A stretch of 55,877 bases of DNA from a virus (IMGVR_UViG_3300031669_000035:1-55877), one strand, 5' to 3'. Counted from the stretch's first letter, positions 10,218 through 40,276 are shown. Translations and numbers: made by a program. Notes: generated by a model not told the origin, from the sequence alone.

Positions 10218-10220
10218 TTT

Positions 10221-11021: not shown

Positions 11022-11764
11022 TATTTATTTGTTGTTTGGTCTTCACTTAATTCATTAACACTTACTAATTTATTTGTTGGTATTGACTTTTGTTGATTAT
11101 TAACATCGTCATTACCATCATTTAATCTTTCGTTAGGCATTAGTAAAGCCCATCTACCAAGATCAAGAACCTGTCTCTTTAGTATTATCATTAACTCTTC
11201 AGGGAAATCAAATGGAGCATCTAAATCTATTTCAGTTACAGGGTCTAATGTAGAGTATATTCCAACCTCCACATTATTAATTTCAACACACTCTATACCT
11301 AATAAGTAAATATAATCTCCAACTCTATAAAAATATGGATTTGAAGGACTTGGTGTTTCATATTTAGAAAAATAAAGTCTTCTTGATTTTCCAGGTGTAG
11401 TTCTACTGAATGTTACATTTGTAAAAGCAGGAGGACATCCTGGAGGTGCACAATCAATACTGTATGAAATATATTCTATACCGCCATCCTTATCGTAATC
11501 GTAGATTGTTTTTGGCAAGAAAAAGAACTTTCTATTCTTTATTTCGTTTGGATTTTTACTGATATTCCTTATCTGAACAGGAATTTCATCAAAAGTGGAA
11601 AGAAAAGCACCTGAATCTCTCTTCCCTATATGTTGTGATTTAAGCCTATTCCCTACAAGGATAACCCAAAAGGCTACCTGAGACTTTTGAACCTTTTTAT
11701 CATCAACTATTTGACCTAAATCAACTAATATATCATCAACTATATGCCTTAAAAGAGTTCCCAT
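11021..11764 (-). CDS. ring/collar virion protein, crAss-like
   Basis: 247 residues. The helical N-terminus (LLRHIVDDILVDLGQIVDDK) is followed by a strand-rich middle and a helix containing FPEELMIILKRQVLDLGRWA, a pattern I associate with crAss-like ring proteins. It is coupled by one-base overlap to the next ring gene and starts one base after the preceding gene's frame ends. It probably belongs to the stacked collar between portal and tail. Confidence 0.65.
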   Translation of the reverse strand: MGTLLRHIVDDILVDLGQIVDDKKVQKSQVAFWVILVGNRLKSQHIGKRDSGAFLSTFDEIPVQIRNISKNPNEIKNRKFFFLPKTIYDYDKDGGIEYISYSIDCAPPGCPPAFTNVTFSRTTPGKSRRLYFSKYETPSPSNPYFYRVGDYIYLLGIECVEINNVEVGIYSTLDPVTEIDLDAPFDFPEELMIILKRQVLDLGRWALLMPNERLNDGNDDVNNQQKSIPTNKLVSVNELSEDQTTNK

Positions 11765-11765
11765 A

Positions 11766-12521
11766 TTAAACCATTAATTTTACTAATGTTGATACGTCTT
11801 GAGCTGTAACTGAAAATAAATTAGTATTATCACCTTGTTTATAAGAGATAAAATTTAAGGCTTTTTGAAATAATAAATCAAAAATTGTTTCAGGGAACTC
11901 GATATTATCACTAATATTAATAATCTTGTTAGGATTTTTAAGTAGTGTTACCGCAACAAATTCACCAGGAACATTAGGCCTTATCTGTATTTCTTCTCCT
12001 CCAGCATTATAGTTTGACGAACCGTAATTTCCATGACCAAGATACGCATAACTTTCTAATTGATTGCTTAAAATTTCATTTCCTGCAGCAAAAACATTTT
12101 TTCTGTTTTCATTCCACTCTTCAATAGTTAGTCTTTTTGCTGAATAGTAGCTATCAACATAAGATAAATCACCCCTAAAAACAGATGTTTCTGGCGAAGG
12201 TAAAACAGGAGGTGTTGTTGTTGGTGTTACTGTTGGTTTTGGGAAAATACCTAATATTGTCCAAATATCATAACCAAGAGCGGTAGTGTTAAAATGTATT
12301 CTTGAGAAAGAGTTAGCTTGCCAAATTGTAGTTTTGACAAGCTCTCTTAAATCTTCCTCGGATAACTTATTATCTGAAAATGCTGCATTAAAAACCGCTA
12401 CAAGCCAATCTATTGATGAATTTATAGCAGGTTTAAAATCCTGGTCAAACAAATACCTTTCAGACCCTTCAGCGTCAAGAACGCTTTTCATTCTGTCTAC
12501 TACTGTTTGAGCATTTATCAT
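11766..12521 (-). CDS. ring protein of the collar, crAss-like
   Basis: 251 residues. The N-terminal helices contain LDAEGSERYLFDQDFKPAIN and SSIDWLVAVFNAAFSDNKLS, close to what I remember from crAss-like ring proteins; this is the most family-like segment in the collar group. A Thr/Pro-rich linker (PTVTPTTTPPVLP, about residues 96-108) separates it from a C-terminal beta-rich part. It is first of three successive collar genes downstream of the capsid. Confidence 0.7.
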   Translation of the reverse strand: MINAQTVVDRMKSVLDAEGSERYLFDQDFKPAINSSIDWLVAVFNAAFSDNKLSEEDLRELVKTTIWQANSFSRIHFNTTALGYDIWTILGIFPKPTVTPTTTPPVLPSPETSVFRGDLSYVDSYYSAKRLTIEEWNENRKNVFAAGNEILSNQLESYAYLGHGNYGSSNYNAGGEEIQIRPNVPGEFVAVTLLKNPNKIINISDNIEFPETIFDLLFQKALNFISYKQGDNTNLFSVTAQDVSTLVKLMV

Positions 12522-12527
12522 TTCATT

Positions 12528-13280
12528 TTATTTTTTTTGGGTTAATAAATCTTGTTCTATTATAGATTCTTTAAGTCTTATTTGATTTGCTTGATCTTCC
12601 TTAGCCATTTCTTCATCAACCTGCTTGTTTGCTATTGATAATCTAAGCATATTAATATCCTGAGAAGGCTCTATATTATTTTGCTTAGCAATTTGAATTA
12701 TCCTATGAACATCAGAGCTATTCAAAACAGACATTACTCTTGCTAATTTTGCAGCTTTTCTTGAGTCTGCATTTAATGCATCCATGTGACTAACAAAGAA
12801 TATAGAACCAAAAGCTCTATGCTTTTTCAACCATTCAACTTCTTTCTTACTATAACTTGTGTATGATGACAAGTTGTGAAGTTTTGTTTCATTTCCAGTT
12901 CCTGTTTTTCTTGTTGCTTGGTACACAAATCTAATGACGTTTTTAAATGGCGTTTGTACTGCCATCCCTTGTCTTGTATCGTCAACAATAACATAACCAA
13001 CTTGATGACAAAAGAATGAATAACCTTCTTCAAGGTAATCTTCAGGGTCTATATCTTCAATTTTAGTGTAAGTGCCTTCTCCACCATACTTCTCTGAATC
13101 TGGCTTCTCTTTTAGTCCAGCTACAAGCTCTTTCATTAACGAAAGTGCATCTGTACTACCACTTGCAGGCGATTGTTTCTCTTTTTTTAATTCCTCAAGT
13201 TCTTTTTTCATTTGCAAAACTAATTCTGCAGTCTGATCCTTACCTGAGTTTTCGTTCACTTCTTCTATTTCAATACTCAT
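12528..13280 (-). CDS. conserved head-region protein of unknown role
   Basis: 250 residues. The N-terminal coiled-coil-like segment (AELVLQMKKELEELKKEKQ, residues about 19-37) is followed by a compact middle with HQVGYVIVDDTRQG and a helical C-terminus. It lies between the capsid terminator and the collar genes. The position suggests a head completion or auxiliary virion protein, but nothing in the sequence decides it. Confidence 0.65.
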   Translation of the reverse strand: MSIEIEEVNENSGKDQTAELVLQMKKELEELKKEKQSPASGSTDALSLMKELVAGLKEKPDSEKYGGEGTYTKIEDIDPEDYLEEGYSFFCHQVGYVIVDDTRQGMAVQTPFKNVIRFVYQATRKTGTGNETKLHNLSSYTSYSKKEVEWLKKHRAFGSIFFVSHMDALNADSRKAAKLARVMSVLNSSDVHRIIQIAKQNNIEPSQDINMLRLSIANKQVDEEMAKEDQANQIRLKESIIEQDLLTQKK

Positions 13281-13301
13281 CTTATTTTATTTTTATGTGT
13301 T

Positions 13302-13336
13302 AAAAAAAGGGGCTGAACCTTTACTTGCTCAGCCCC
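13302..13336 (-). terminator. strong intrinsic terminator after the capsid gene
   Basis: On the minus strand GGGGCTGA pairs with TCAGCCCC (8 bp, 12-base loop), followed by seven T residues. It sits 19 bases past the capsid stop and would cap the abundant capsid transcript, with read-through supplying the collar genes. Confidence 0.9.
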
Positions 13337-13354
13337 ATTATTATTTATTTAATT

Positions 13355-14632
13355 CTATTGGATGTCCATCCAGAATGATCCAGGAGGATTGTTGAACTCT
13401 AAGCTCAAGTTTCCACTTACCCACCAGTCTGTGTAGTTTTCTCTTGATCCTTTACTGCCTCTGTTTAGAGTAGAACCCATTTCAACTGCAGGTATTCCTT
13501 TCATTTTAACAGGAGAGATAGATTCTTGGTCTAACACCAACACTTTTCTTCTCCATTCGTCAGGAAAACAAGAAGGCTCTCTAAATAATTCACAAGGAAC
13601 CAATACAAAGTTCATTCCTCCAAACTCAATTCTTGATAAATTCAAGTTTGCAACTTCATCAGAAGGACTATATCTTAAGCCTGGTTGCTTGTAAATTTTA
13701 GAAAACTCATTAAGGATCTCTGCTGTTCCGTAAATGAAACGAGTAGCACCCTCAACTTTAAAGTTTGTTTGGAAAGCTAAAGCTTCAAAAGCAGCTTGTA
13801 ATCCAGCTACCGTAGGGTTTGCACTTGCAGAACCTGCAGCAACCATTGTAGGATATATACCACCCATTGCTTTTGCAACTCTATTTCCAGATAACGGGAA
13901 CTCACCTCTTTGACCATTGAAGTATGAGTTAAAGAAATCAACTCTTAATTGATTTAACTTTAACTTTTTATCTTTCGCAAGATAATCAGTAGTTCCAGCA
14001 TTGATGTATTTCTGCATCTCAACTCTATCCCATCTCTGAGCTCTTAAGAAGAACTGGATATAGTTGTATCTTGTGATTGTTTCCATTCTTCCGTAGTTAG
14101 CGAAATAATCCATACCATCAGACTCGATAGTAGATTGGAAAGCAAAAACATCACCAACCGCAACAGCAGGTAAGCCATCACTTGTTTGAGATGTTACAAT
14201 AATTTGATTACCAGCACCAACTTGTGTAATAACACCTTTACTATTATCTGGATAGATAACAATTAAGTCCTCAGTAACGTGAGCCATTGAAGCTGCTGTT
14301 AATGGGATAGTTTGTGTCTGAGAAGCCCCAGCTACAGCAGCTTGAGCTGCAACAATAGCAGTAGCCTCAATAGGGCTTCTACCAAAAGTAGTTTCAAGGT
14401 ATTCAAACTCGTCAAGAGTTTTCTCTAAATAAGGCTTCATGTTAAGAAGCTTTAGAGCATTATATTGAGCAGGAGCCGCATCAAAGATTTCTCTTCGTAC
14501 TGCTTTCTGAATTAAAATTGATTCCGCAGGCGAAAATGCTGATTCAACAGCATACTGCGACCCTTCAGGGTTTGTTTGTAAGTTCCCGAAAGGAGCATTA
14601 CCAACGCCAGGTGTATAAGTAGTTTCACTCAT
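13355..14632 (-). CDS. major capsid protein
   Basis: 425 residues. Identified by position after portal and scaffold-like genes, by size, and by its HK97-fold-like pattern: a helical N-terminal arm and long helix (residues about 30-75), an Ala-rich segment (TAIVAAQAAVAGASQTQTIP, about 92-111), a central helical part and a strand-rich C-terminus ending in NNPPGSFWMDIQ. The leader is A-rich (typical for highly expressed Bacteroidetes genes) and the gene is followed by the strongest terminator of the late region, consistent with a major structural product. No protease gene is seen beside it. Confidence 0.8.
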   Translation of the reverse strand: MSETTYTPGVGNAPFGNLQTNPEGSQYAVESAFSPAESILIQKAVRREIFDAAPAQYNALKLLNMKPYLEKTLDEFEYLETTFGRSPIEATAIVAAQAAVAGASQTQTIPLTAASMAHVTEDLIVIYPDNSKGVITQVGAGNQIIVTSQTSDGLPAVAVGDVFAFQSTIESDGMDYFANYGRMETITRYNYIQFFLRAQRWDRVEMQKYINAGTTDYLAKDKKLKLNQLRVDFFNSYFNGQRGEFPLSGNRVAKAMGGIYPTMVAAGSASANPTVAGLQAAFEALAFQTNFKVEGATRFIYGTAEILNEFSKIYKQPGLRYSPSDEVANLNLSRIEFGGMNFVLVPCELFREPSCFPDEWRRKVLVLDQESISPVKMKGIPAVEMGSTLNRGSKGSRENYTDWWVSGNLSLEFNNPPGSFWMDIQ

Positions 14633-14668
14633 GATATTTTTTTTATTTTAAATTTAACTTTTTTTTAA

Positions 14669-15919
14669 TTAATAAACTTTACTTTGTCCTAAATCTTTAG
14701 TTAAATCATCTATTACTCTTAATACTTCTGGTCTTGCTTCTTCTCTTGTTGAACTCGATTTTTTGTTTTGCTTAGGCTTATTAGGAGTTCTTTCTAATAT
14801 AGCTTGCCTTTCATTCGTTTCGGCTTTATGCTGAATTATATTCTTGTATTGCTTCATGATGTCGTGACCATGTTCTGCGTAACTAAGTTTTAACGCTGCA
14901 TCTTCCTTGAATGTGCCATCTTCATTAAATAGCATTTCATTGATTTTTTGTATGTTTAGATTAGCCTTAGCTTGTGCTATATAGCCATCATCAATACCTT
15001 CAATGTTTTTCTTTAAATACTCTATAGACTTTTCTACAGAACTATTAATCTTTTGAGATCTTTCATTTGCCAACTCAACTTGGTTAGTTCTAAATGAATC
15101 CAAGTCTTTTTTATCAGCTTCAAATTTAGATTTAGCAGTACTTATCGCTAAATTAATCGCTTTCTTAATCCCTGGGTCTGCATCTTCAGAACCATAGTCC
15201 TCCCATTCTTCTTGAGAAAACTGACCTGGCAAATAATTATCTACAAGGCTCTTTTCATCAATAGTGTCAATATTTTTTGAAAAATCTAAATTAGGTTTAC
15301 TAATTATTGGTGTTTTCCAATCTTGACCTTTTAAGAATAAGTCTATACTTTGGTATAACTCAGAAGGAATTGATTCGAAAACTTTCTTGTAGTTTTCATT
15401 TTCCTTAGACACTTCCTGTATCTGAGTTTCTACCTCTTTAAATTTCAAAGAACTTTCAATCAGTTCGTTTAAGTTGTTATATCCTGTTTTTTCACTTATA
15501 ACCTTACTTAAAGCTTCTGTATCTTTTAAATCCGCAGTAAAGTCTTCACTTTCCGCATCTTTCTTTTTGTTTACCCCTTGCTTTCCTCCGTAAATAGGGC
15601 TTTCAATAAATAAGTCATCTTCATTCGGTTCTTCTTTATTCGATTCGTCTAAAGGCTGTTCCTCTATATTATCTTCTTTATTTTCCTTACTGTTGAGCGT
15701 TTCTGCTGCTATTTGCTCAATATTTTCTGGGTCTTTTATTGTTTCTTCTTTGATTGGTTCAACAACTTCATTTTTATTTGTTTCATCTCCCAATTCAGAT
15801 AGACCTCTCTCTAATTCTTGTGCACCTGATAATCCTGATAATGCTTCTAATGCTGACTGAGCAGCTTCAGACATACCTGATTCTAAATGCTCTTCTGGTG
15901 CGTTGTTTTCTTCTGTCAT
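14669..15919 (-). CDS. putative scaffolding protein
   Basis: 416 residues, very acidic in the first half (runs of Glu/Asp/Asn, residues about 1-140) and highly helical/coiled in the rest, with a Lys/Arg-rich end (NKPKQNKKSSSTREEARPE). Acidic helical proteins encoded between portal and capsid are usually scaffolds. The call rests on composition and place, not on a motif. Confidence 0.65.
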   Translation of the reverse strand: MTEENNAPEEHLESGMSEAAQSALEALSGLSGAQELERGLSELGDETNKNEVVEPIKEETIKDPENIEQIAAETLNSKENKEDNIEEQPLDESNKEEPNEDDLFIESPIYGGKQGVNKKKDAESEDFTADLKDTEALSKVISEKTGYNNLNELIESSLKFKEVETQIQEVSKENENYKKVFESIPSELYQSIDLFLKGQDWKTPIISKPNLDFSKNIDTIDEKSLVDNYLPGQFSQEEWEDYGSEDADPGIKKAINLAISTAKSKFEADKKDLDSFRTNQVELANERSQKINSSVEKSIEYLKKNIEGIDDGYIAQAKANLNIQKINEMLFNEDGTFKEDAALKLSYAEHGHDIMKQYKNIIQHKAETNERQAILERTPNKPKQNKKSSSTREEARPEVLRVIDDLTKDLGQSKVY

Positions 15920-15935
15920 AATAAAACTCTTTTGG

Positions 15936-15943
15936 CAAATATA
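15936..15943 (-). promoter_or_regulatory. Bacteroidetes-type -7 box before scaffold and capsid genes
   Basis: Minus-strand TATATTTG lies 17 bases upstream of the scaffold-like ATG in the 52-base gap after the portal gene. It could boost scaffold and capsid expression. No obvious -33 TTG. Confidence 0.45.
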
Positions 15944-15971
15944 AATAAAAATTTAATAATATTCATAATTA

Positions 15972-18218
15972 TTAATTAAAATTCTTATTTGCAGTGGATA
16001 ATGATTCTTTTAATGCTATTTGTTCCATCTTGTTTGAGTGGTCCTCCATTTTATCTATGGTTCTCTCATTTTTTTGATCCTGTAATATTTTCTCGTTCTT
16101 TGCCTCTTGCTGAGCTAAAAGTTGTTGTTCCTGTTCAGCTCTTACTTTATTTTCTTTAGCCTCCTGTCTTTTTAGCTCAAGTTTCTTGCCTGCGTACTCT
16201 CTTAATGCCATAGCTACATCAGAAGGAGTTGACCTTGTATATAGGTCTGAATAAATTGTATCATCTATCATTCCTGTCTGAAGGAACACGTTAAGCATTT
16301 GATCTCCTTGTGCAAATAACATGTCTTGAGCATTCTCTCTTGTAACGAAAACTCTAAAGTCTTCACCTTTCATATCTTTTGATAGCTCAAGAACTTCAAC
16401 ACCGTCATCACCCACAGCTATAGCTAACTCTCTCTCATTATCTATATACATTCTTTTTCCTACGGTAGCTGTATGCTGGTGTACTTGCAAGAAAGTTTGA
16501 GATAATGCGTTATAGAATGGCTCTTGCATTAAAGAACCTCTTTGTATAAGCATTTGCGTAACACCTACAAGTTGGTCTGAACCTGTACTCTCACCTTTTA
16601 ACCCTTCATTTACTCCAGTATCTTTTTGGATGATACCTTCCATAATTGGGATGATATTGAACAAAGCGTAAGTGCCTTGTTTAGGTGTGGCATCATATAC
16701 TCCAAGTGAGTTAGGCACACCCCTACCTTTTGTTCTTATTGTTATAGGTTTTCCTTGGTCAACATCTCTATACAGAGCATCTTCCCCTCCTTGTGCATCG
16801 ATAGAGTCTTTATCTACAACAACATTTGTCCCTCCTGAATTGTTTATTTGTGATTCCGCAACAGATAGTATTCTGTTTATAAATCTCTGAGGATTTATAG
16901 CGTCATCTACAGGGCTCATTATTTCTCCATCAACATAACCCCAAGTATAACACTTGAAAGGATATTTTACATTTGACAAGTCATCCCAATCTGTTTCCTG
17001 GTAAGGATGTAATCCAAAATCAAGAACAATATCAGATACAACTTCTCCTGATTTAGCTTTTTCTTTTGATACTCCTATAGCTTCATAGGGTATGAATTTA
17101 CAAAATCTAAGAACATCGATATACATTGATCTTTTCTTTGAACCATTAAACAACTTATCATTTTTAGGTGTTTTAGGTGGTTCGATTAGGTCTTCTTCGG
17201 TATATGGTTCTCCTGTCAATGGGTTTTCTGTTTCGCCTAAATAAATAAGGTATGGATATCCATATTCATCCATAACATATCCTGCTGTTTTTTTCTCTTC
17301 ATCCCTCCAGTAGGCATGACAAACAGGAATTTTAGTAGTTCCAATATTTTGATTAGAATTTTCATCGCTAAAAACTGCATTGTTTTGTGATTGTTGATTA
17401 TCAGAGACATATTTTTCTATTGCTTTTCTTTCTTCATCCTCTATATTTTGATATGTTTCATATATATCTGTAGGAAGCATTCCTACGAATTTACCCATAT
17501 AGTCAGCATCTGTAAGATCATATCTTTTTGCAGATCTGTCAAAAAAGAAGTCCTCAGATTGAAGAACCTCATATCTTTGATGTCCAGAATGTTCAAATGC
17601 CTCTACCACACAAAGACCAGAAAGACCTAAATTCTGAGATGCCATCACTTGCATTTCCTCAAGATTATTTAGGTTCTTTACATACTGTATAAGTCTATTT
17701 ATAGTCTTTACGTATGAATCTACGTATAAGTTTTCATGGATTTGTCTTGTTTCACCTTCTGTTTCACCTATAGATTTGTCAGAATCTCTAAGTATTCTTC
17801 CTAATGCAGGAAATTCATTAGCAATCCTTGTTTTTAGTAATTTCTTACCAAGAGACTCCTCTCTTCTGTTTATGGCTTTCTTAGAAACACTTTTAGCACT
17901 TGCGTTTATAGTCAGCCTTATAGCATTACCTCTGTACTGCTCAATCATTGGGCGTATTAGGTTGTGTACTACTTTAATTCTATTCCTTGCTTGGCTTGTG
18001 CTATCTTTTAAGAACGCTTCTAAATCTTCATCTTTAATCCACTGATTTCCCTTATAGAAATTCTTGTTTATTTTTGTTTTTGCAATGAAATCAGCATGTG
18101 AGGATGTTGATGAGTCTGCAGCTACAAATTTTGCGTATTGAAGGTGGTAAGACTTGTCTTTATCTTTAGTTTCAAGTCTATTTGGTTTTGTTGTCGCTTC
18201 TGTAAGAAAGTAAAACAT
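15972..18218 (-). CDS. portal protein, crAss-like
   Basis: 748 residues. The N-terminal part contains NFYKGNQW (residue about 54) and NRIKVVHNLIRPMIEQYRGN (about 79-98), a strong portal signature in crAss-like and related Bacteroidetes phages. A long helical middle and a Gln/Glu/Lys-rich coiled C-terminus (residues about 680-730) follow. Its position after TerL and before scaffold and capsid fits. The portal forms the dodecameric DNA channel at one capsid vertex and docks TerL and the ring proteins. Confidence 0.85.
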   Translation of the reverse strand: MFYFLTEATTKPNRLETKDKDKSYHLQYAKFVAADSSTSSHADFIAKTKINKNFYKGNQWIKDEDLEAFLKDSTSQARNRIKVVHNLIRPMIEQYRGNAIRLTINASAKSVSKKAINRREESLGKKLLKTRIANEFPALGRILRDSDKSIGETEGETRQIHENLYVDSYVKTINRLIQYVKNLNNLEEMQVMASQNLGLSGLCVVEAFEHSGHQRYEVLQSEDFFFDRSAKRYDLTDADYMGKFVGMLPTDIYETYQNIEDEERKAIEKYVSDNQQSQNNAVFSDENSNQNIGTTKIPVCHAYWRDEEKKTAGYVMDEYGYPYLIYLGETENPLTGEPYTEEDLIEPPKTPKNDKLFNGSKKRSMYIDVLRFCKFIPYEAIGVSKEKAKSGEVVSDIVLDFGLHPYQETDWDDLSNVKYPFKCYTWGYVDGEIMSPVDDAINPQRFINRILSVAESQINNSGGTNVVVDKDSIDAQGGEDALYRDVDQGKPITIRTKGRGVPNSLGVYDATPKQGTYALFNIIPIMEGIIQKDTGVNEGLKGESTGSDQLVGVTQMLIQRGSLMQEPFYNALSQTFLQVHQHTATVGKRMYIDNERELAIAVGDDGVEVLELSKDMKGEDFRVFVTRENAQDMLFAQGDQMLNVFLQTGMIDDTIYSDLYTRSTPSDVAMALREYAGKKLELKRQEAKENKVRAEQEQQLLAQQEAKNEKILQDQKNERTIDKMEDHSNKMEQIALKESLSTANKNFN

Positions 18219-18223
18219 AATTA

Positions 18224-18820
18224 TTACTGTTGTTTGTGAAATGATTCAATTAACTCTGATGAGCTAATTTCTAATATGTCTGCATCTTCTTTTTCAGATA
18301 TTCCAAATCCTCCTTCAGATTGTGATATTAGAGCTGGTAATGTTTTTGATATTGTTGAACATGAATCTATATATGCTTTCTTCTTTGTCCAGTCTGTTTC
18401 TCCGTCTTTATTCAAAAAATCCATACTTAAATTAACATCTACAAGCTTCTCGTAATTTGACATGATTTTTTCAATCATCATTTTAGATCTTATTCTTGGT
18501 CCAATTTCAAAAGTTCTCATTTCAGCTATAGCTGTTTTTACTTTTTCAGAAAAATTTCCTGCTATGTATGTATTTCTTACAGTGTCAGCTTTTTTTCCGA
18601 AAGATTGCTCAAGAGACAGTTCTATTTTCTGCTTATCATCTTCTTCGTATTTAAACGGACTTGCTTTACAAGCATAATACCATACAAACAAGGCTTCTGA
18701 CCTTGATAGGTTTCTAAAAGCATCTCTCTTTGCCAATTCTGGATAATCTAATAAAATACCTTTCTTTGTTTCCGGATAAAACATTGAAAGTCTTTTTACA
18801 TATTCTACATTATCACTCAT
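18224..18820 (-). CDS. small packaging-region protein (terminase small subunit candidate)
   Basis: 198 residues, helical, charged, no recognised motif. It lies between TerL and portal, and its ATG overlaps the TerL stop (TAATG), so it is translationally coupled to TerL. The position makes a packaging or portal-associated role likely. A small terminase subunit is possible, but that gene usually precedes TerL and no HTH is evident. Confidence 0.5.
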   Translation of the reverse strand: MSDNVEYVKRLSMFYPETKKGILLDYPELAKRDAFRNLSRSEALFVWYYACKASPFKYEEDDKQKIELSLEQSFGKKADTVRNTYIAGNFSEKVKTAIAEMRTFEIGPRIRSKMMIEKIMSNYEKLVDVNLSMDFLNKDGETDWTKKKAYIDSCSTISKTLPALISQSEGGFGISEKEDADILEISSSELIESFHKQQ

Positions 18821-21147
18821 TAATATCTTTTTTGTTTTATTGGTCTTCTGTTAAGATTTCCGCCTGAATCCCTATATAATTCGTACTTTATAACATACTT
18901 ATCATCCTCTGATTTTATCTCATAAGGAGTTAAGTGTTCATAGGATAAGCTACAAATGTAAGAAAAAACAACTGAAAATAAAACGTCATCATGAAATTTC
19001 CTTTTATCTGCTGTCCCCCAAGTTTCGTTACCTTTTTCTGATACTGTACATATAAAAGTTCTAAGCTGAAGAAAGAATGTGTCTATCCATATATTATCTC
19101 CGTATGCTTGGATAAATTCAAACATCTTATTTATTATAAATCTTGTTCTCGCACCTCTATTGTCTATTCCTTCTGTATTAGACCCTCCTTGCATGTATGG
19201 TGGTAATTCAGTTCTATAAACAAGACTGTCGTAAAACCCCTTTGTATCTACATAATCAATATAAGCCATACCTATATTTGATTCTACTAATTCTTTAACT
19301 CTTTCTTTTTTACCTTCTGAAGCTCCATAGTAAAGTCCAAGAAGCATTGTTTGAAGGAATGTGTACTTATGATTACTATCTCTATAATTCACTATTGCAG
19401 ACACTGTTTTAAAGTGTGCGTCAAAAATTGATGCTGACATATTAGAATAACCATTATCTGATGCAATAGGATCGACTCCGCTATAATATCTATTTACCCA
19501 ATTTCTTTTTGGATGCATAAATATAGTACATGAAGCTCTTGGGTCATCATCAGCAGTGGGTACAAATGTAGCTCCAACTATTTTAAATGGTACATCATCA
19601 TTTTCACCTGCCTGAACCGAAGTGTCAAACACTGGTTCAAAATAACCTTTCTGTGGTTTTGTTACAGCAGGTACATCTCTTATTCTTTCGAGAGACCTGT
19701 TTATATAGTCTATAGAAACAAGAGTTTTTGCTGATGTCAAGAACATGTCCTCTATTATTGAAGGGTATGTCTGTCTAAATTGAACCATTTTCTCCTCTCT
19801 GTCTGGGCCTTCAACATTATATACAGCCTTTTCTTTGTCGTAGAACTCTTTAGTTATACCTGGTCTTGTTGTCCAGTCGAAAAATATAGGTATTATTGCA
19901 CTTTCAAATTCTCTATCGGCCCATTTTTTCATGGCAGCCATAAATTCAAGCTCGTAAGCCTTACCTGCCTTATCCATCTCTCCACCTGTTCCCCATGCTA
20001 TAATTTGACGTTTAATTTCTATCTTTTTTGTGTCAGGATTCTGCCAGAACATAGTAGGTCTTGCTTCACGCATCATTTTACCTAATATTCCAATATAACC
20101 AGCCTCATCTATCATTACAAGTTGTGGTGAACCACCATTAATAGCTGACACAGATGGTGCTACTACCTGAAGCTTTGAGTTTAACCCTCTTTTATCACCT
20201 TTTTTACCTTTCTCGCTTAGTCTAAACAGATTATCTCTGTCGTTACTTACTGATGGTTTTAACCATTCCGGAAGCTCACTAAAAGGGTATTTAATTTTAT
20301 CTTCAAAAATCTCTATACCGGTATCTTTATCTTGTGTTATAAATTTCAGGAAGAAATTAGGGTATAATAGAATCTTTTTTAAAGCACATCCACCGAGAGT
20401 AGACGTTGCTGCTATCTGTCTTGGTTTACCAATCATCATTGAGTAACCACAGTCAAAAAGATAACATATAACTTCATGTACAGGTTTTGCATCATAAGTT
20501 CTTGCTCCTGATGACATATCACCCTCTTTAAGTACGAGGTATTTATTTAAGAAATACAATGTATTTTCTTTACTCCTCTTCATTTCTCTCAAGCAGAAAG
20601 TCTTTTTTTCGTCTATTGTTGCAAAATCATTTACAGATTTGTTTTCAGAATACCACTGTTCAGCTTGCTGAACGTAAAGCATAAACTTTTTATAGTTTGT
20701 TTTTTTCTGGAACCCAGTATTTATACTGTCAATCCAATCAATAAAATCTCTTTCGTGGTAAACTGTAGATGTTGGCATCCAGTCTTCTTTCTCGATATCT
20801 ATACTTCCGTCAAACCTATAAGATGTTCCTTCTGTTATCTTTTTAAAACCTTCTGCAGATTTTATTACTACATGCTTATCTTTATCTGATTTTAATTCTG
20901 ATTCATCGACAATTTTTATATGCTTGTCTGCATTTATAGCGTTGTCACTCTTTATTCTTGGGTCAGATATGATAGATACCTTTTCTTTTTGTATCTGTTT
21001 TATTTTTGGCTGACTTATGTAGCCATTTTTTTTCAGTAAGTCAATATCTTCTTTAGATATTTCGACTCCTGTTTGATATAGTTCGAATAAAAATTCTAAT
21101 CTATTCTCTCTTACTATTTCATTTTTTATCTTCTGATTATTACTCAT
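18820..21147 (-). CDS. terL: terminase large subunit
   Basis: 775 residues. The N-terminal ATPase has a deviant Walker A, GKPRQIAATST (residues about 236-246), with the Lys at the motif start as in several phage terminases, and a Walker B, LVMIDEAG (about 341-348). The C-terminal RNase H-fold nuclease shows YYSGVDPIASDNGYS (about 552) and a late HDDVLFSVVFSYI (about 717) supplying acidic metal ligands. It cuts and pumps the genome into the prohead through the portal. A terminator lies immediately upstream, so TerL begins a new stretch of the late operon. Confidence 0.93.
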   Translation of the reverse strand: MSNNQKIKNEIVRENRLEFLFELYQTGVEISKEDIDLLKKNGYISQPKIKQIQKEKVSIISDPRIKSDNAINADKHIKIVDESELKSDKDKHVVIKSAEGFKKITEGTSYRFDGSIDIEKEDWMPTSTVYHERDFIDWIDSINTGFQKKTNYKKFMLYVQQAEQWYSENKSVNDFATIDEKKTFCLREMKRSKENTLYFLNKYLVLKEGDMSSGARTYDAKPVHEVICYLFDCGYSMMIGKPRQIAATSTLGGCALKKILLYPNFFLKFITQDKDTGIEIFEDKIKYPFSELPEWLKPSVSNDRDNLFRLSEKGKKGDKRGLNSKLQVVAPSVSAINGGSPQLVMIDEAGYIGILGKMMREARPTMFWQNPDTKKIEIKRQIIAWGTGGEMDKAGKAYELEFMAAMKKWADREFESAIIPIFFDWTTRPGITKEFYDKEKAVYNVEGPDREEKMVQFRQTYPSIIEDMFLTSAKTLVSIDYINRSLERIRDVPAVTKPQKGYFEPVFDTSVQAGENDDVPFKIVGATFVPTADDDPRASCTIFMHPKRNWVNRYYSGVDPIASDNGYSNMSASIFDAHFKTVSAIVNYRDSNHKYTFLQTMLLGLYYGASEGKKERVKELVESNIGMAYIDYVDTKGFYDSLVYRTELPPYMQGGSNTEGIDNRGARTRFIINKMFEFIQAYGDNIWIDTFFLQLRTFICTVSEKGNETWGTADKRKFHDDVLFSVVFSYICSLSYEHLTPYEIKSEDDKYVIKYELYRDSGGNLNRRPIKQKRY

Positions 21148-21160
21148 TTGTTTATTTTTA

Positions 21161-21192
21161 AAAGGCCCTATGCTTTCACCTATAGGGCCTTT
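21161..21192 (-). terminator. intrinsic terminator between the Glu/Lys-rich gene and terL
   Basis: An 11-bp perfect stem AAAGGCCCTAT/ATAGGGCCTTT with a 10-base loop. On the minus strand it is followed by CTTTTAAAAATAAA, a modest T stretch. It separates the upstream gene from terL. Confidence 0.8.
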
Positions 21193-21216
21193 ATAGTTTT
21201 TAATGGCAACAAAAAA

Positions 21217-21798
21217 CTATTTTTCTTCTTCTTTAGTAGCTTCTACTTTAGCTTCTACTTCAGCTTCTACTTTAGCAGCTTCTTCTACTTCAGCTTCTGC
21301 TTTAGTTTCTACTTTAGTAGTCGTTTCAGTAAGCATGCTTATAGCTTTGTTTAAAGATTCTATAGCTACTGTGTGAGCTGTAAAGTAAGATTTTTTAAGC
21401 TCTATAAAAGATAATGATTTTGTAACTATTCTTTGGTACTCACGTTTATTTTCTTCATTATTGAATTTAGACAATAATGCATAGACGCTATTTAATGAGC
21501 CAACCATTCTTGATATTGATGTATCATAGTTTTCGTTTTCTTTTATAGAAAGATCTCCTCTATAGAATGTGTTTCCGTCCTTTTCGTTATATTTAACATA
21601 CTGAACCTTGTATTCTATCTCTTTATAAAGAGAGATAAGCATTTTAGACAGTCCATTAATAGATTTTTCTAATTCATCATTAAATCCTTCTGGTAAATCT
21701 TCTTTATTTAATGTTGAGGCTTTTTTTGAAAGCAAGTTTACTCTTGCAACTTCTTTTCTTGCATCTTCTATAGATGCTGCTAACTGTTCTAATTTCAT
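21217..21798 (-). CDS. helical protein with repetitive Glu/Ala/Lys/Val tail
   Basis: 193 residues, mostly helical. The last 35 residues are low complexity (repeats of VEAEVEAK-type units) built from an imperfect 18-base DNA repeat of TTCTACTTTAGC-like units (about 21236-21320). No recognised domain. It lies between the tmRNA gene and terL and ends at a strong terminator. It begins with a poly-A leader ending AAAAAAAAATG, like other genes of the block. Possibly a virion decoration or packaging accessory protein. Confidence 0.6.
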   Translation of the reverse strand: MKLEQLAASIEDARKEVARVNLLSKKASTLNKEDLPEGFNDELEKSINGLSKMLISLYKEIEYKVQYVKYNEKDGNTFYRGDLSIKENENYDTSISRMVGSLNSVYALLSKFNNEENKREYQRIVTKSLSFIELKKSYFTAHTVAIESLNKAISMLTETTTKVETKAEAEVEEAAKVEAEVEAKVEATKEEEK

Positions 21799-24493: not shown

Positions 24494-24688
24494 ATGAAAA
24501 AAGAAATAGAAAAAGCAATTAGAGAAACATTAGTTGTGGATAACAAACAAAGCATTCATATAGCAGTAGAAAAAATATGGAATTTATTTAATGTTAGCAA
24601 CTGTTCTTGTATAAGTAGAGACACTTTAACTCCTGAAGCAAGAAAAATGTTTGATGATATTGATAAAGCATTAGAAAGAAAAAAATAG
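24494..24688 (+). CDS. cassette-type hypothetical protein, 64 aa
   Basis: Charged helical protein of unknown role. Its stop is followed immediately by TTGCTAACG and an attC-like palindrome, as in other cassette-like genes of this genome. Confidence 0.5.
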   Translation: MKKEIEKAIRETLVVDNKQSIHIAVEKIWNLFNVSNCSCISRDTLTPEARKMFDDIDKALERKK

Positions 24689-24689
24689 T

Positions 24690-24745
24690 TGCTAACGGTA
24701 AATCTATAATGCGTTTTAATGCATTTATAGATAATGTTATAATTC
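24690..24745 (+). repeat. attC-like palindrome, copy A
   Basis: Arms ATCTATAATGC (24702-24712) and its complement (24721-24732, one T bulged) flank a GTTTTAAT centre. Outer TAAC (24693) and GTTA (24736) complete a nested palindrome. The centre GCGTTTTAATGC matches copies B, C and D. Confidence 0.65.
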
Positions 24746-24752
24746 GTTTATT

Positions 24753-24914
24753 ATGAAGATAAATAAAGAAATAAGAAAAAAGGCTATTAAAAGAATGATA
24801 GCGAGGTATGAGAAACTTCAATCAGAAGCAAACCCTTACGGTTTTAATGCTGATGATGGAATGAAATACTACTACTTAATTGATTATTGGGAGGATAGGT
24901 TAAATGAATTATAA
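24753..24914 (+). CDS. small cassette protein, 53 aa
   Basis: ATG to TAA frame of 53 residues, strongly basic N-terminus (MKINKEIRKKAIKRMIARYE) then an aromatic C-terminus (YYYLIDYWEDRLNEL). It lies between two attC-like sites, and its stop merges into TAACG. No known function. Confidence 0.45.
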   Translation: MKINKEIRKKAIKRMIARYEKLQSEANPYGFNADDGMKYYYLIDYWEDRLNEL

Positions 24915-24966
24915 CGTACAGGTATAGGGTTAGTTTTTAGGTGATTTAATAACGAAAATAAACAAT

Positions 24967-25182
24967 ATGAAAGTAGTAGAAGAATTTGAATACGAAGGAT
25001 GGATGAGCCAAGAAGCACAGAAGTTTTTTGAAGGTAAATTGATTAGAGAAGAACGCGATGGATGTGCGATAGTTGGAAGTTTTGTTAAGCTGGCAAACGG
25101 AAATACTCATTTACCTTCAAAAAGTGATAAGTTTAAAAAATACGAAAATGGTAGTATAACGGTAACTTCAATTTACCGATAA
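24967..25182 (+). CDS. cassette-type hypothetical protein, 71 aa
   Basis: 71 residues of mixed composition with no recognised motif, followed within 30 bases by the attC-like copy B. Same cassette-like spacing as its neighbours. Confidence 0.5.
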   Translation: MKVVEEFEYEGWMSQEAQKFFEGKLIREERDGCAIVGSFVKLANGNTHLPSKSDKFKKYENGSITVTSIYR

Positions 25183-25197
25183 TGTTAGCCTAAAATT

Positions 25198-25245
25198 AAC
25201 TATATACCGTGTTAGCAAATCGTTTTAATGTTTGCTAACAACCGA
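25198..25245 (+). repeat. attC-like palindrome, copy B
   Basis: Perfect 9-bp arms GTTAGCAAA (25211-25219) and TTTGCTAAC (25231-25239) around T-CGTTTTAATG. Preceded by TATATACCGT, a segment also found at the type-2 site near 38.9 kb. Confidence 0.7.
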
Positions 25246-25270
25246 ATAAACACAACTAAACTAAACTAAA

Positions 25271-37356: not shown

Positions 37357-37833
37357 ATGAAAGATAAATATTACACACCAGAAATAGAAGAGTTACATAT
37401 TGGGCTTGAATATAAGGTTGGACATTTTGAGTTGATATGTACAAGTGTTAATACAGACACTATTAGTGGTTCAACATACAAAGTTTCTATAAAAGATAGG
37501 GTTAACCATACCTTCAGTAATAGATTGGCTACTGTTAAACACCTCGACAGAGAAGATATAGAGAGTGTTGAAATTAATGGAGAAAAATTTATACATGATT
37601 TTAATCTTGATGGTGAAGAGCATCCCAGTTTATTCAACGAACATGGATATTCAAAAGGTTATGCCCTTGATACACAACTAAAAGATGATAAGCTAATATT
37701 GCTGTATCATTTTCCTGATGGATATGTTGTTATAGATTTAGTATATAATTGTGGTTCATCACCTCATTCATTTTCTGGTATTATAAATAACAAAAGCGAG
37801 CTTAAACGAATTTTAAAACAAATAGGGGTATGA
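37357..37833 (+). CDS. hypothetical protein, 158 aa
   Basis: Beta-rich, no recognised motif. It overlaps the next gene by 4 bases (ATGA), so the two are coupled and follow RNase H within 6 bases. Confidence 0.55.
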   Translation: MKDKYYTPEIEELHIGLEYKVGHFELICTSVNTDTISGSTYKVSIKDRVNHTFSNRLATVKHLDREDIESVEINGEKFIHDFNLDGEEHPSLFNEHGYSKGYALDTQLKDDKLILLYHFPDGYVVIDLVYNCGSSPHSFSGIINNKSELKRILKQIGV

Positions 37834-38249
37834 TAAACACATACATATACAACAAAGAGAAAAAGACTTTAGGATTTATATTCTATCTTTTCGAAAATAA
37901 TCAATTTGTAAACGACTATGACACCTACGAGTCTGTTGTTGATATGGATGTTTATTACAGAACCTCTAAGTCAGATATCTTAGGTATTAATTTAGAGCGA
38001 TTTATAAGCTATTGTAACGATAGTATTGATTCAGATACTATTCTTATTAAGGAAGCCACAGAAATGCTTAATAAGGCTGCCCTGTGGAGATCAAAACATA
38101 GAGAGAAGTATAAGGATTTTTTGGAGATGATGCTTCGAGCTAAAACAAGGATGAGAGATCTTGTTAATGCAACAGATGGTCCAGAGAGAATTAAAGCTTA
38201 CATGATGTATAAAGTTATGCTTGATTTTATTAAGATGGAATTGAATTAA
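37830..38249 (+). CDS. hypothetical protein, 139 aa
   Basis: Alpha-helical, with a basic stretch LLNKAALWRSKHREKYKDFL-like in the second half. Its stop is part of TAACGG, the start of a type-2 cassette half-site (38247-38276). Confidence 0.5.
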   Translation: MINTYIYNKEKKTLGFIFYLFENNQFVNDYDTYESVVDMDVYYRTSKSDILGINLERFISYCNDSIDSDTILIKEATEMLNKAALWRSKHREKYKDFLEMMLRAKTRMRDLVNATDGPERIKAYMMYKVMLDFIKMELN

Positions 38250-38276
38250 CGGTTTGTGTATGACCAGTAGCGGAAT
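38247..38276 (+). repeat. type-2 cassette half-site
   Basis: TAACG, then GTGTATGA, then AGCGGAAT, the same three blocks in the same order and spacing as at 38859-38895. It begins at the stop codon of the upstream gene. Confidence 0.5.
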
Positions 38277-38308
38277 ACAAATAACAAAACAATTTAATAC
38301 AGATAAAC

Positions 38309-38572
38309 ATGAGCAAAGAGAATGAAGTTAAAGAACCCACTAACTTTGAATTTAATGAGCGAGTGGTTTGGGACTCAGGATTTGGATATGAAATAGGACA
38401 CTTTTTGGGTGAAGGAAATTCATATAATACTTGGTTAATTGACGTAAGAACTGGATTGATTGTAGAGCCGTTTTCATACTCAAAAATCGAAGTGTTCAAG
38501 TATACAAATGAACTTATCAATAAGTTAACCGCCAAATATGGTTATGAGAAACGTTTCTCGGAGCTGTTTTAA
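38309..38572 (+). CDS. cassette-type hypothetical protein, 87 aa
   Basis: Small acidic alpha/beta protein (ERVVWDSGFGYEIGHFLGEG) of unknown family. It is bounded on both sides by attC-like elements, the layout of an integron gene cassette. Confidence 0.5.
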   Translation: MSKENEVKEPTNFEFNERVVWDSGFGYEIGHFLGEGNSYNTWLIDVRTGLIVEPFSYSKIEVFKYTNELINKLTAKYGYEKRFSELF

Positions 38573-38575
38573 ATG

Positions 38576-38630
38576 GTGGCTAACGTTTTGGCTAAACAGC
38601 GTTTTAATGCTGTTTAGGTGGTGTTATAAT
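38576..38630 (+). repeat. attC-like palindrome, copy C
   Basis: Perfect 9-bp arms CTAAACAGC (38592-38600) and GCTGTTTAG (38609-38617) flank GTTTTAAT. Outer TAAC (38581) and GTTA (38623). Directly after the 87-residue gene. Confidence 0.7.
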
Positions 38631-38654
38631 TTGTTTGATTTAAAATAATAAAAT

Positions 38655-38861
38655 ATGAACGACAAAGATAAAATACATAATATGGCTTCTTGTATGTTGT
38701 CAATATTAGATAGTTTAAAACTATACGATAATGACAGTTTATTACTTGATAATGAAACCTTATCAGAGGTTATGTTTAGAAAAATGAAGGCTTACAATAT
38801 AGATTTGAATAAAGAATTGGGGTTTACTCACTTGAAACCGATAACTAAAAATAAATTATAA
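38655..38861 (+). CDS. cassette-type hypothetical protein, 68 aa
   Basis: Helical protein without recognised motif. Its TAA stop is the first part of TAACG of the type-2 site that follows. Confidence 0.5.
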   Translation: MNDKDKIHNMASCMLSILDSLKLYDNDSLLLDNETLSEVMFRKMKAYNIDLNKELGFTHLKPITKNKL

Positions 38862-38928
38862 CGTTTAGTGTATGAAATGTGGAGCAAAGCGGAATTTTTT
38901 ATATACCGTGTTATGCTCTTTTAAATTT
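38859..38928 (+). repeat. type-2 cassette site
   Basis: TAACGTTTAGTGTATGA, then AGCGGAAT, then ATATACCGTGTTATG. The GTGTATGAAAT block pairs with ATTTTTTATATAC-type sequence to form an imperfect hairpin. Blocks shared with 38247-38276 and with 25201-25213. Confidence 0.5.
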
Positions 38929-38935
38929 AGAAAAA

Positions 38936-39283
38936 ATGGAAGCTATAGAAAAATTTGAAGATGAATACAACTCTTTAATGTTAGAGTTAGATATGTTGGA
39001 AAATAAGAAAATAAATAAACTAAAAGATAAGTTTGTTAAAAAACTCCCTTTTAAAAAGGGTGATATTATTTATAATGTAACCGGAATTATAAAAATAGAT
39101 AATATTGATTTTAAAATAGGTTATAATGGTAGAGGTGAATTATTACCAATATATGCCACATTTAGTGGGGTTAAGTATAAATGGGTAAAAGATGGTTTTG
39201 TAACACCTACCAAAAATAAACAAAGAGGGGATTTACATTCTTATGGGAATTTAAAAAGGATAGATAAAAGTAAGATTGTATAA
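38936..39283 (+). CDS. cassette-type hypothetical protein, 115 aa
   Basis: Started at the ATG at 38936, because the longer GTG frame runs back through the recombination-like site. Charged helical N-terminus then a beta-rich C-terminal half (GDIIYNVTGIIKIDNIDFKI). Unknown function. Confidence 0.5.
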   Translation: MEAIEKFEDEYNSLMLELDMLENKKINKLKDKFVKKLPFKKGDIIYNVTGIIKIDNIDFKIGYNGRGELLPIYATFSGVKYKWVKDGFVTPTKNKQRGDLHSYGNLKRIDKSKIV

Positions 39284-39285
39284 TT

Positions 39286-39345
39286 GAGCATAACGCATGG
39301 TGGTAAAAAATCGTTTTAATGTTTTTTACCACGTGTTATACGCTG
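39286..39345 (+). repeat. attC-like palindrome, copy D
   Basis: Perfect 10-bp arms TGGTAAAAAA (39301-39310) and TTTTTTACCA (39322-39331) around T-CGTTTTAATG. Outer CATAACGC and GTGTTATACGC complete the nested symmetry. Confidence 0.75.
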
Positions 39346-39402
39346 GCACGGTTGATTAAACGATAAACTTAAATTGAAACACAAAACAAAATTTTTATTA
39401 AA

Positions 39403-39597
39403 ATGAGCGAGGGCAAAAAAGAAATTAAACACTTAAAGGAAAAAGAAATGCAAGAAGTAATTGACTTCTATTATTTCATTGATGATTACGGACATATTTT
39501 TTATGATGACCCTAAGATATTAGAAGAACCATTTAAGAAGATTATTGAAGGCATTGAGCAAGTAAAAAATATAATTAACGATAACTATGATAGATAA
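39403..39597 (+). CDS. hypothetical protein, 64 aa
   Basis: Acidic helical protein, overlapping the methyltransferase gene start by 11 bases, so probably translated with it. Not recognised. Confidence 0.5.
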   Translation: MSEGKKEIKHLKEKEMQEVIDFYYFIDDYGHIFYDDPKILEEPFKKIIEGIEQVKNIINDNYDR

Positions 39598-40231
39598 AAA
39601 GAAAATACTGAATTTATATGCAGGGATAGGCGGAAACCGAAAACTGTGGGGTAATGAATATGAAGTAACGGCAGTTGAATTTGAACAATACATTGCAGAT
39701 GCTTATAAGGAACTTAATCCAAATGACGAAATAATAGTTTCTGATGCACACCAATACTTAATTGAGAACTTTCAAAAGTTTGACTTTATTTGGAGTAGCC
39801 CACCTTGCCCATCACATAGCAGAACAAGCACTTCATTAAGCGGATGGGGAGTATTTAGATACCCTGATATGAAACTATACGAGGAAATAATTTTCTTGAA
39901 ACACTTTTTTAAAGGAAAATTTGTGATTGAAAATGTGATACCATATTATGAAACTTTGGTAAAACCGACCATTGAAATTGATAGGCATTTATTTTGGTCA
40001 AACTTTCCAATAAAACCATTAAAAGTTGAAAGAAATTATGATGTAAGTAGAGCAACAAAAGAAGTACTTGCAGAACATCACGGTATTATTTTGCCCGAAA
40101 AAACAAAAGATAAACGAAAACTTTTGAGAAACTGTGTAAACCCTGCTGTTGGATTACATATTATTAATTGTGCGTTGGTAGATTTTAATAAAAATTTTGA
40201 ACCGCAAACTCTATTTGGAAACGAAATGTAG
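39587..40231 (+). CDS. DNA cytosine-methyltransferase-like protein
   Basis: 214 residues. An N-terminal SAM-binding glycine loop (LNLYAGIGGNRKLW, residues 8-21), a PPCPSHS motif with catalytic-type Cys74, and ENV at 115-117 match C5 DNA methyltransferases, but the family's later target-recognition region is short or missing (usual length over 300). It lies in the cassette-like stretch, probably to modify phage DNA against restriction. Confidence 0.75.
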   Translation: MIDKKKILNLYAGIGGNRKLWGNEYEVTAVEFEQYIADAYKELNPNDEIIVSDAHQYLIENFQKFDFIWSSPPCPSHSRTSTSLSGWGVFRYPDMKLYEEIIFLKHFFKGKFVIENVIPYYETLVKPTIEIDRHLFWSNFPIKPLKVERNYDVSRATKEVLAEHHGIILPEKTKDKRKLLRNCVNPAVGLHIINCALVDFNKNFEPQTLFGNEM

Positions 40232-40276
40232 TGCTTGCGTATAACACCCGAATAAACAACATTCAAAATTTTGAAC

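Follow-up and report, generated by a model that had tools for sequence, protein, structure and literature searches.

Small genes between attC-like hairpins in a Bacteroidota phage: probable integron-type cassette arrays lacking a recombinase of their own

Two regions of a phage genome, near 25 kb and 39 kb, contain small genes separated by short attC-like palindromes, which raises the question of whether these genes are cassettes of the integron kind and, if so, which enzyme would move them. The window, meaning the whole stretch of DNA analysed (IMGVR_UViG_3300031669_000035), is a complete IMG/VR virus of 55,877 bases. It encodes a phage portal protein, a DNA helicase, a polymerase processivity factor and methyltransferases, and it is a virus of Bacteroidota bacteria. 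An earlier, sequence-only reading had proposed integron-like cassettes bounded by folded attC-like sites, a proposal now supported by the complementarity of cassette ends, the recurrence of cassettes and the paired arms of sites collected irrespective of structure. The window very probably carries two small integron-type cassette arrays without a recombinase (CALINs), in which the genes are inverted and which are likely moved by a XerA/IntI-like enzyme acting in trans.

Clusters of attC sites have already been found in virulent phages, including Polaribacter phage P12002L, and IntI1 recombined one of the two P12002L attC sites tested, according to the available text of that study (Qi et al. 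2023, PMC9892861). On the strength of these P12002L findings, the presence of attC clusters in a flavophage is known.

Sites in the window

The centre GTTTTAATG occurs six times in the window, five times on the + strand, compared with an expectation of 1.24 copies, and none of 100 shuffled sequences reached six. Sites A, C and D are built alike, with an outer TAACG and GTTA, the centre CGTTTTAATG and self-complementary arms that differ between sites. The sequence-only reading had extended this build to a fourth copy, B; there, however, the arms GTTAGCAAA and TTTGCTAAC are the outer boxes themselves, and no outer TAACG...GTTA pair is present. It had also taken a conserved centre with variable arms for the logic of attC sites, which is not the usual arrangement: in attC sites it is the R boxes that are conserved and the terminal loop that varies. 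A constant CGTTTTAATG loop sets these short sites apart.

A hairpin and stem finder that imposes no requirement on the centre detected four sites (A, C, D and the site at 38859), all on the + strand, and none on the other strand or in reversed controls. The window therefore contains at least two tandem attC-like sites of one orientation that bound small genes, the arrangement of a CALIN, and the arrays are assigned as CALINs because no recombinase gene was found in the window. Sites A, C and D passed single-strand folding with unpaired spacers; the site at 38859–38913 did not, its folding being no better than that of shuffled sequences (z 0.26). This site belongs to a proposed second type, whose shared words GTGTATGA and AGCGGAAT occur three times each, close to chance in that 11 and 6 of 100 shuffles, respectively, matched these counts. 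The reality of the site would rest on the cassette ends at either side, as it is flanked by closed cassettes.

The remaining elements are less regular. The centre copy at 24841 (+) is armless and lies within an ORF. A site-like sequence at the end of ORF 24967–25182 was missed by the hairpin finder (Table 1). The left half site at 38247 was searched for a 3′ half and none was found, so it is a remnant or a degenerate site. An arrangement of the copy-B type, GTTATGGCA-TCGTTTTAATG-TGCCATAAC, also lies just upstream of the recombinase gene of one viral contig (G017), and one loop sequence serves both kinds of hairpin, mini-units and full sites.

Table 1 Features of the two arrays in the window.
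Feature	Position	Strand	Sequence and evidence
Short cassette unit	24593..24696	+	Start GTTAGCAACT, end AGTTGCTAAC; 10-nt complementarity, G/A mismatch at position 11
Site A, attC-like hairpin, CGTTTTAATG loop	24693..24739	+	Hairpin finder; single-strand DNA fold z −2.9
Cassette body, 53-aa orphan gene (24753–24914)	24736..24915	+	Start GTTATAATTC, end GAATTATAAC; 10-nt end complementarity, G/A at position 11; no Pfam match
Degenerate site-like sequence TAACGGTAAC..TTACCGATAATGTTA, uncertain	25157..25187	+	Direct reading; TAACG..GTTA pattern match
Copy B mini-unit GTTAGCAAA-TCGTTTTAATG-TTTGCTAAC	25211..25239	+	DNA fold z −4.4
Right-end anchor, array 1, TAAC-AACCGAATAAACA	25236..25252	+	Near-copies at 40242 (1 mismatch) and 40742 (2 mismatches)
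Left half site TAACGGTTTGTGTATGACCAGTAGCGGAAT	38247..38276	+	Direct reading; overlaps stop codon of gene 37830–38249
87-aa orphan cassette gene	38309..38572	+	Cassette end GGTGGCTAAC at 38575–38584
Site C, attC-like hairpin, CGTTTTAATG loop	38581..38626	+	Hairpin finder; DNA fold z −4.0
Cassette body, 68-aa orphan gene (38655–38861)	38623..38862	+	Start GTTATAATTT, end AAATTATAAC; 10-nt end complementarity, G/A at position 11
'Type-2' site, longer inner part, no CGTTTTAATG	38859..38913	+	Stem finder; closed cassettes on both flanks
Cassette body, 115-aa orphan gene (38936–39283)	38910..39294	+	Start GTTATGCTC, end GAGCATAAC; 9-nt complementarity then TT/AA, like other family members
Site D, attC-like hairpin, CGTTTTAATG loop	39291..39338	+	Hairpin finder; DNA fold z −3.3
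Cassette body, 64-aa ORF (39403–39597) and 214-aa protein (39587–40231)	39335..40245	+	Start GTTATACGC, end GCGTATAAC; 9-nt complementarity then TG/AA
Right-end anchor, array 2, TAAC-ACCCGAATAAACA	40242..40258	+	No hairpin after, as expected for attI-side end

Cassettes of the two arrays

The window comprises five closed cassette units, three of which lie within 38623–40245; the short unit of the first array overlaps the 3′ part of ORF 24494–24688. A bare count of complementary end-word pairs in the window is not above that for other words, and the weight of these units therefore lies in their position exactly at sites and in their signature mismatch. The 214-aa protein matches the C5-cytosine methyltransferase family (PF00145, E 5.4e-7, 29.8 bits) over only the first ~78 of 324 profile positions and is probably a divergent or shortened enzyme. 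No Pfam family was found for the remaining cassette proteins of the window.

The 87-aa protein has relatives in eight other viral contigs (47–91% identity) and none in phage records, and no relative of the 115-aa protein was found in viral contigs. Nucleotide similarity between the 87-aa gene and its closest relative (L306) ends at 38590, inside the site and directly after TAACG.

An anchor search with up to three mismatches gave 5 matches in the window versus 0.29 expected. Copies of a TAACAACCGAATAAACA-like sequence with at most two mismatches lie at 25236, 40242 and 40742, the first two coinciding exactly with the right ends of the arrays; the sequence may be a favoured secondary target or else a gene leader that recurs in the window phage. 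The attI-like motif of related phages, described below, has no copy at the array ends of the window.

Cassette ends and recurrence across viral arrays

The sites of the window belong to a family of the form TAACG-arm-CGTTTTAATG-arm-GTTA. At least 422 distinct sites were collected from the viral contigs fetched, 199 of them with the CGTTTTAATG loop, and their lengths are mostly 40–59 or 70–99 nt. The longer class, with ends TAACGGTTG...GTTA, is present in the same arrays as the short sites. A structure-blind pattern scan of viral contigs gave many true sites among the matches listed, and matches of the same scan in bacterial genomes were mostly unrelated: a true site is present in 19 of the 118 bacterial stretches fetched, and more than one in only 3. 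In 52 of 86 distinct short viral sites picked regardless of pairing, the arms form 7 or more Watson–Crick pairs; shuffling the arms of the 86 sites gave a mean of 3.1 such sites and at most 8.

Segments between consecutive sites start with GTTAn6 and end with its reverse complement, n6TAAC. In a test set of 74 segments of 100–900 bp, at least 8 end bases are complementary in 47, compared with 4.1 for shuffled partners (maximum 12 in 2000 rounds); for segments below 450 bp the count is 33 of 36. The complementarity extends to about 24 nt in some cassettes and, beyond GTTA/TAAC, is specific to each cassette. This is the relation between the R′ and R″ boxes of integron cassettes, which comprise 9–11 complementary bases (PMC2727003).

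Entire cassettes recur between unrelated viral arrays. A 340-bp cassette is shared at 99.1% identity by two contigs (L021, 7617–7956, and L348) in which the neighbours on both sides differ, as does the following site, and whose recombinase genes are only 76% alike at the DNA level. Homologous blocks of 180–2500 bp between different arrays start at the TAACG start of a site in 55 cases, at the site end in 4 and inside the site in 9; the right-hand ends of blocks are less clear than the left-hand ones. Such recurrence beside different neighbours is indirect evidence for excision and integration by a recombinase. For the window phage itself, gain or loss of cassettes is not demonstrable, because no close relative spans its arrays; the only one found (L305, ~95% identical) covers 5974–21778. 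Three contigs (L308, L309 and L310, just after 3225) share one cassette gene, behind which stands a truncated half site, TAACGTTTGCGTGTATGGGAAGTTTAAATAGCAGG; the sites beyond it differ in part between the contigs. These half sites are possible scars of site deletion.

Cassette starts also carry TAnnTTTG, a motif resembling Bacteroidota promoters, in 73 of 392 viral cases versus 28 in shuffled sequences. In the same 392 cassette starts, a TTG peak is observed 20–21 bases upstream of TAnnTTTG, and this TTG often lies in the 3′ arm of the site.

Polarity of the cassettes

In ordinary integrons, the site follows its gene. The sequence-only reading had described each site as sitting right after a small orphan gene; small genes do lie between the sites, but the hairpin belongs to the gene after it, and the polarity of the viral arrays is inverted. 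This assignment is made because five features agree, namely the block boundaries described above, the linkage of the hairpin, the mismatch at position 11, the G after AAC and the location of the platform at the 3′ end. In viral arrays, the site was not found to travel with the upstream gene, and the genes do not have the sense orientation relative to attC that is usual in integrons.

When at least 250 nt of homology are required, pairs with homologous flanks only downstream retain the hairpin in 5 of 8 cases, as opposed to 0 of 6 with only upstream homology. For this small sample, the Fisher p is 0.03 at ≥250 nt, 0.05 at 180 nt and 0.16 at 120 nt; sites selected by the search pattern are left out of these counts, an earlier count that included them having been inflated. 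At position 11, where the mismatch is fixed, 107 viral cassettes have the A at their end and not one has it at its start, and in 11 cassettes from three Bacteroidia chromosomes it is reversed without exception. The longest ORF is on the strand of the site in 161 of 162 viral cassettes. Finally, attC sites have a G following AAC on the bottom strand, where it marks the R′ box (PMC2727003); in the viral sites this G is on the top strand, upstream of the hairpin (TAACG).

Recombinase and attI-like site in related large phages

The absence of an integrase from the window had been taken to mean that host enzymes would be needed. The absence stands; the need does not follow, as related large viral contigs encode a recombinase beside their arrays. 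A tyrosine recombinase of 265–270 aa, forming one clade, is present in 8 of the 20 array-bearing viral contigs first examined, and no match was found in the other 12, some of which are fragments. The conserved R, K, HxxR, H and Y residues are present. The recombinase-bearing contigs are assigned to large phages because terminase genes are present in contigs of 256 and 310 kb.

In all eight contigs, the last site is followed by the recombinase gene, encoded on that site's strand. The end of the last cassette, n6TAAC, is fused to a conserved TAAC|TAnn..ATAT located 30–60 bp upstream of the start codon. This fixed sequence, TAAC|TAGATTATATATG, is an attI-like site. One recombinase gene of this kind occupies 107956–108762 of contig G007 (IMGVR_UViG_3300042879_005260).

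The enzyme is of a XerA/IntI type, with a length of ~268 aa. Its best scores are with the XerA-like profile NF040815 (176–195 bits, cut-off 220) and with PDB entry 4a8e. It matches the integron integrase profile TIGR02249 in two pieces, below the cut-off, with positions ~180/205–255 missing, and it lacks the matching region of IntI4 (PDB entry 2a3v). From KxDR to HxLRH it has 53 residues, compared with 101 in three of the IntI rows measured. Genuine IntI proteins from seven other genomes score 367–495 bits against the TIGR02249 cut-off of 265. IntI was rejected as the enzyme of the fetched contigs, all of which score below 265 with a split profile match. Integron integrases are considered to be defined by an extra domain close to patch III (PMC9668308); no intI with this domain is present in the window or in the eight related contigs.

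The nearest isolated relatives of the array recombinase are the integrases of the temperate flavophages Cellulophaga phage Ingeline_1 (L315, 6001–6792) and Polaribacter phage Freya_10 (L316, 4147–4962), which are 37–40% identical to it and form its sister pair in the tree.

Chromosomal relatives in Bacteroidia

Homologues of the recombinase are present in 89 of 198 sampled Bacteroidia genomes (~45%), typically as a frame of 350–400 aa. In a number of these genomes, a GTATAnACAA|GTTA-like sequence follows the homologue gene, and closed cassettes begin there. The order is recombinase, attI-like site and consecutive closed cassettes, with normal polarity and sites of ~110–125 nt. One region (L483, G089:C6:89000-108000) contains a chain of six closed cassettes, compared with a control mean of 0.3 and maximum of 4, and two others (L482 and L484) have at least two each; in all three, the recombinase lacks the IntI-specific insertion. 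One-step chains in two further regions (L486 and L491) are doubtful, and a separate test saw the first cassette close in both. No cassette chain was found in 6 of the 12 chromosomal regions, including a very short one. In many assemblies the contig stops just downstream of the chromosomal recombinase gene, as expected beside repeated sites.

A search of bacterial genomes for the phage sites, which the sequence-only reading had suggested, thus has a divided outcome: the short sites are rare, and arrays with the same end logic exist that have longer sites and the opposite polarity. For Bacteroidetes, IntegronFinder 2.0 reports almost no complete integrons: In0 elements alone had been known previously, and one complete integron was added, in Salinibacter (PMC9024848).

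Proposed mechanism and alternative explanations

In the mechanism we propose, a cassette consists of a hairpin site followed by a gene, with complementary ends GTTAn6 ... n6TAAC; because the ends are complementary, a circularised cassette would carry a complete folded recombination site. The recombinase would bind the folded top strand and cut TAA|C in the AAC-G box upstream of the hairpin, and the cut cassette would be joined to other sites or to the attI-like sequence beside the recombinase gene. The likely enzyme is the ~268-aa XerA/IntI-like recombinase found at the 3′ end of the arrays in related large phages. For the window phage it would act in trans, supplied by a co-infecting phage or by a relative in the host, and the right-end anchors of the arrays could serve as secondary targets. 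In place of a platform promoter, promoters inside the cassettes would probably drive expression, partly through the TTG within the site.

One alternative is that the palindromes take no part in recombination and only end or regulate transcription between small phage genes, as ordinary terminators or regulatory hairpins. The sites are intergenic, lie just past stop codons and form stable hairpins, and intergenic hairpins of phages are commonly terminators. Their loops, however, are 8–11 nt long and no T-run follows, and a terminator would leave unexplained why the start of a segment is the reverse complement of its end, why homology stops at TAACG and why a recombinase and a fixed attI-like sequence stand at the array end. 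We regard this explanation as very improbable, and the sites could additionally be weak terminators. An exchange of genes by homologous recombination at short conserved palindromes, with no site-specific enzyme, is just as improbable. Phages do recombine freely, and the conserved centre and boxes could provide microhomology; yet the block boundaries cluster at the 5′ TAACG and are scarce both at the GTTA end, which is equally conserved, and inside the site, and exchange driven by homology would not yield complementary ends that are specific to each cassette. The inverted repeats at cassette ends, long in some cases, would also be compatible with each gene being a small transposon or MITE that a transposase moves by terminal repeats GTTAn6...n6TAAC. 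The terminal repeat, however, is not identical in all copies: it varies by cassette, which leaves a transposase nothing to recognise, and only GTTA/TAAC and the asymmetry at position 11 are constant. Moreover, a single hairpin separates units that run head to tail, and the enzyme encoded next to the arrays is a tyrosine recombinase. We regard a transposon origin as extremely unlikely.

A closer competitor, although still unlikely, is that the cassettes come from, and are moved by, an integron on the chromosome of the Bacteroidota host, the phage recombinase being an unrelated lysogeny integrase. The frequency of recombinase relatives among Bacteroidia, some of which have an adjoining attI-like site and closed cassettes, and the similarity to the integrases of Ingeline and Freya speak in its favour. 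The polarity speaks against it, as viral cassettes, including those of the window, are opposite to chromosomal ones with no exception (107 versus 0); so do the rarity of short sites in bacterial contigs and the fact that in each of the eight recombinase-bearing contigs the array ends at one sequence beside the recombinase. Host enzymes may nevertheless act on the sites in trans. Two small integron-type arrays acted on by a XerA/IntI-like enzyme remain the preferred reading of the window.

Beyond the window, the combined observations point, with somewhat better than even confidence, to a branch of integrons that has gone unnoticed in Bacteroidota and their phages, with a recombinase that lacks the additional domain: chromosomal members would have escaped detection, as their enzyme is not picked up by the standard profile, large phages would carry complete, compact platforms with inverted genes, and smaller phages such as that of the window would take up their cassettes. 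If this is correct, a gene-shuffling system may have been overlooked. The statement that integrons are nearly absent from Bacteroidetes (PMC9024848) would change, as would the statement that the extra domain defines integron integrases (PMC9668308), and recombination of folded sites would not need an IntI-specific domain. Phages would have a system of their own for exchanging accessory genes, methyltransferases among them. What sets the orientation of genes relative to the folded site, reversed here throughout the viral set, becomes testable.

Comparison with known systems

The closest precedent is P12002L, a Flavobacteriaceae phage that has no integrase and in which attC-like sites surround small genes and methyltransferases; the sites were predicted by IntegronFinder/HattCI (available text of PMC9892861). 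The P12002L genome (L243) contains a site of the CGTTTTAATG-loop family, TAACGGCTACGGCTAAACGGTCGTTTTAATGCCGTTTTAGCCATTGTTA, onto which the assayed sites could not be mapped from the available text. That text does not report a constant CGTTTTAATG loop, an inverted gene polarity or phages with a complete platform and a recombinase lacking the IntI domain; it does mention 'divergent directions' of the attC sites in P12002L, which would fit inversion. Among open-licence papers, we found no description of a recombinase without the IntI domain beside arrays, of systematic inversion or of a constant loop, and, among such papers excluding preprints, none that ties integrons to jumbo or huge phages of Bacteroidota. 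Both the recombinase and the inversion thus seem to be novel.

Among tyrosine recombinases, XerA, XerC and XerD act on the dif site, whereas the array recombinase adjoins cassette arrays; it is nearest to the XerA-like profile, yet scores below every curated cut-off. The integrons of Treponema (PMC3607928) share an atypical arrangement in which recombinase and cassette genes are co-directional. There, the integrase is transcribed towards attI; in the phages described here, attI lies upstream of the recombinase start and the cassette genes are read towards attI.

The chromosomal integrons of Vibrio and Pseudoalteromonas have in common with the phage arrays tandem cassettes of one or two small genes, hairpins with unpaired spacers, complementary R′/R″ boxes of 9–11 nt (PMC2727003) and, close to where the recombinase gene has its 5′ end, a fixed attI-like sequence. 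They differ in that the viral genes are inverted relative to the site and the viral recombinase, of ~268 aa, lacks the IntI-specific insertion. The viral sites are also shorter, down to 44–50 nt, with A, C and D in the window at 46–48 nt, below the 57–142 nt range quoted for attC (PMC2727003). Because the arrays appear to work in an integron-like manner, yet have neither the IntI domain nor the usual cassette polarity, we class them with the integrons, as a variant.
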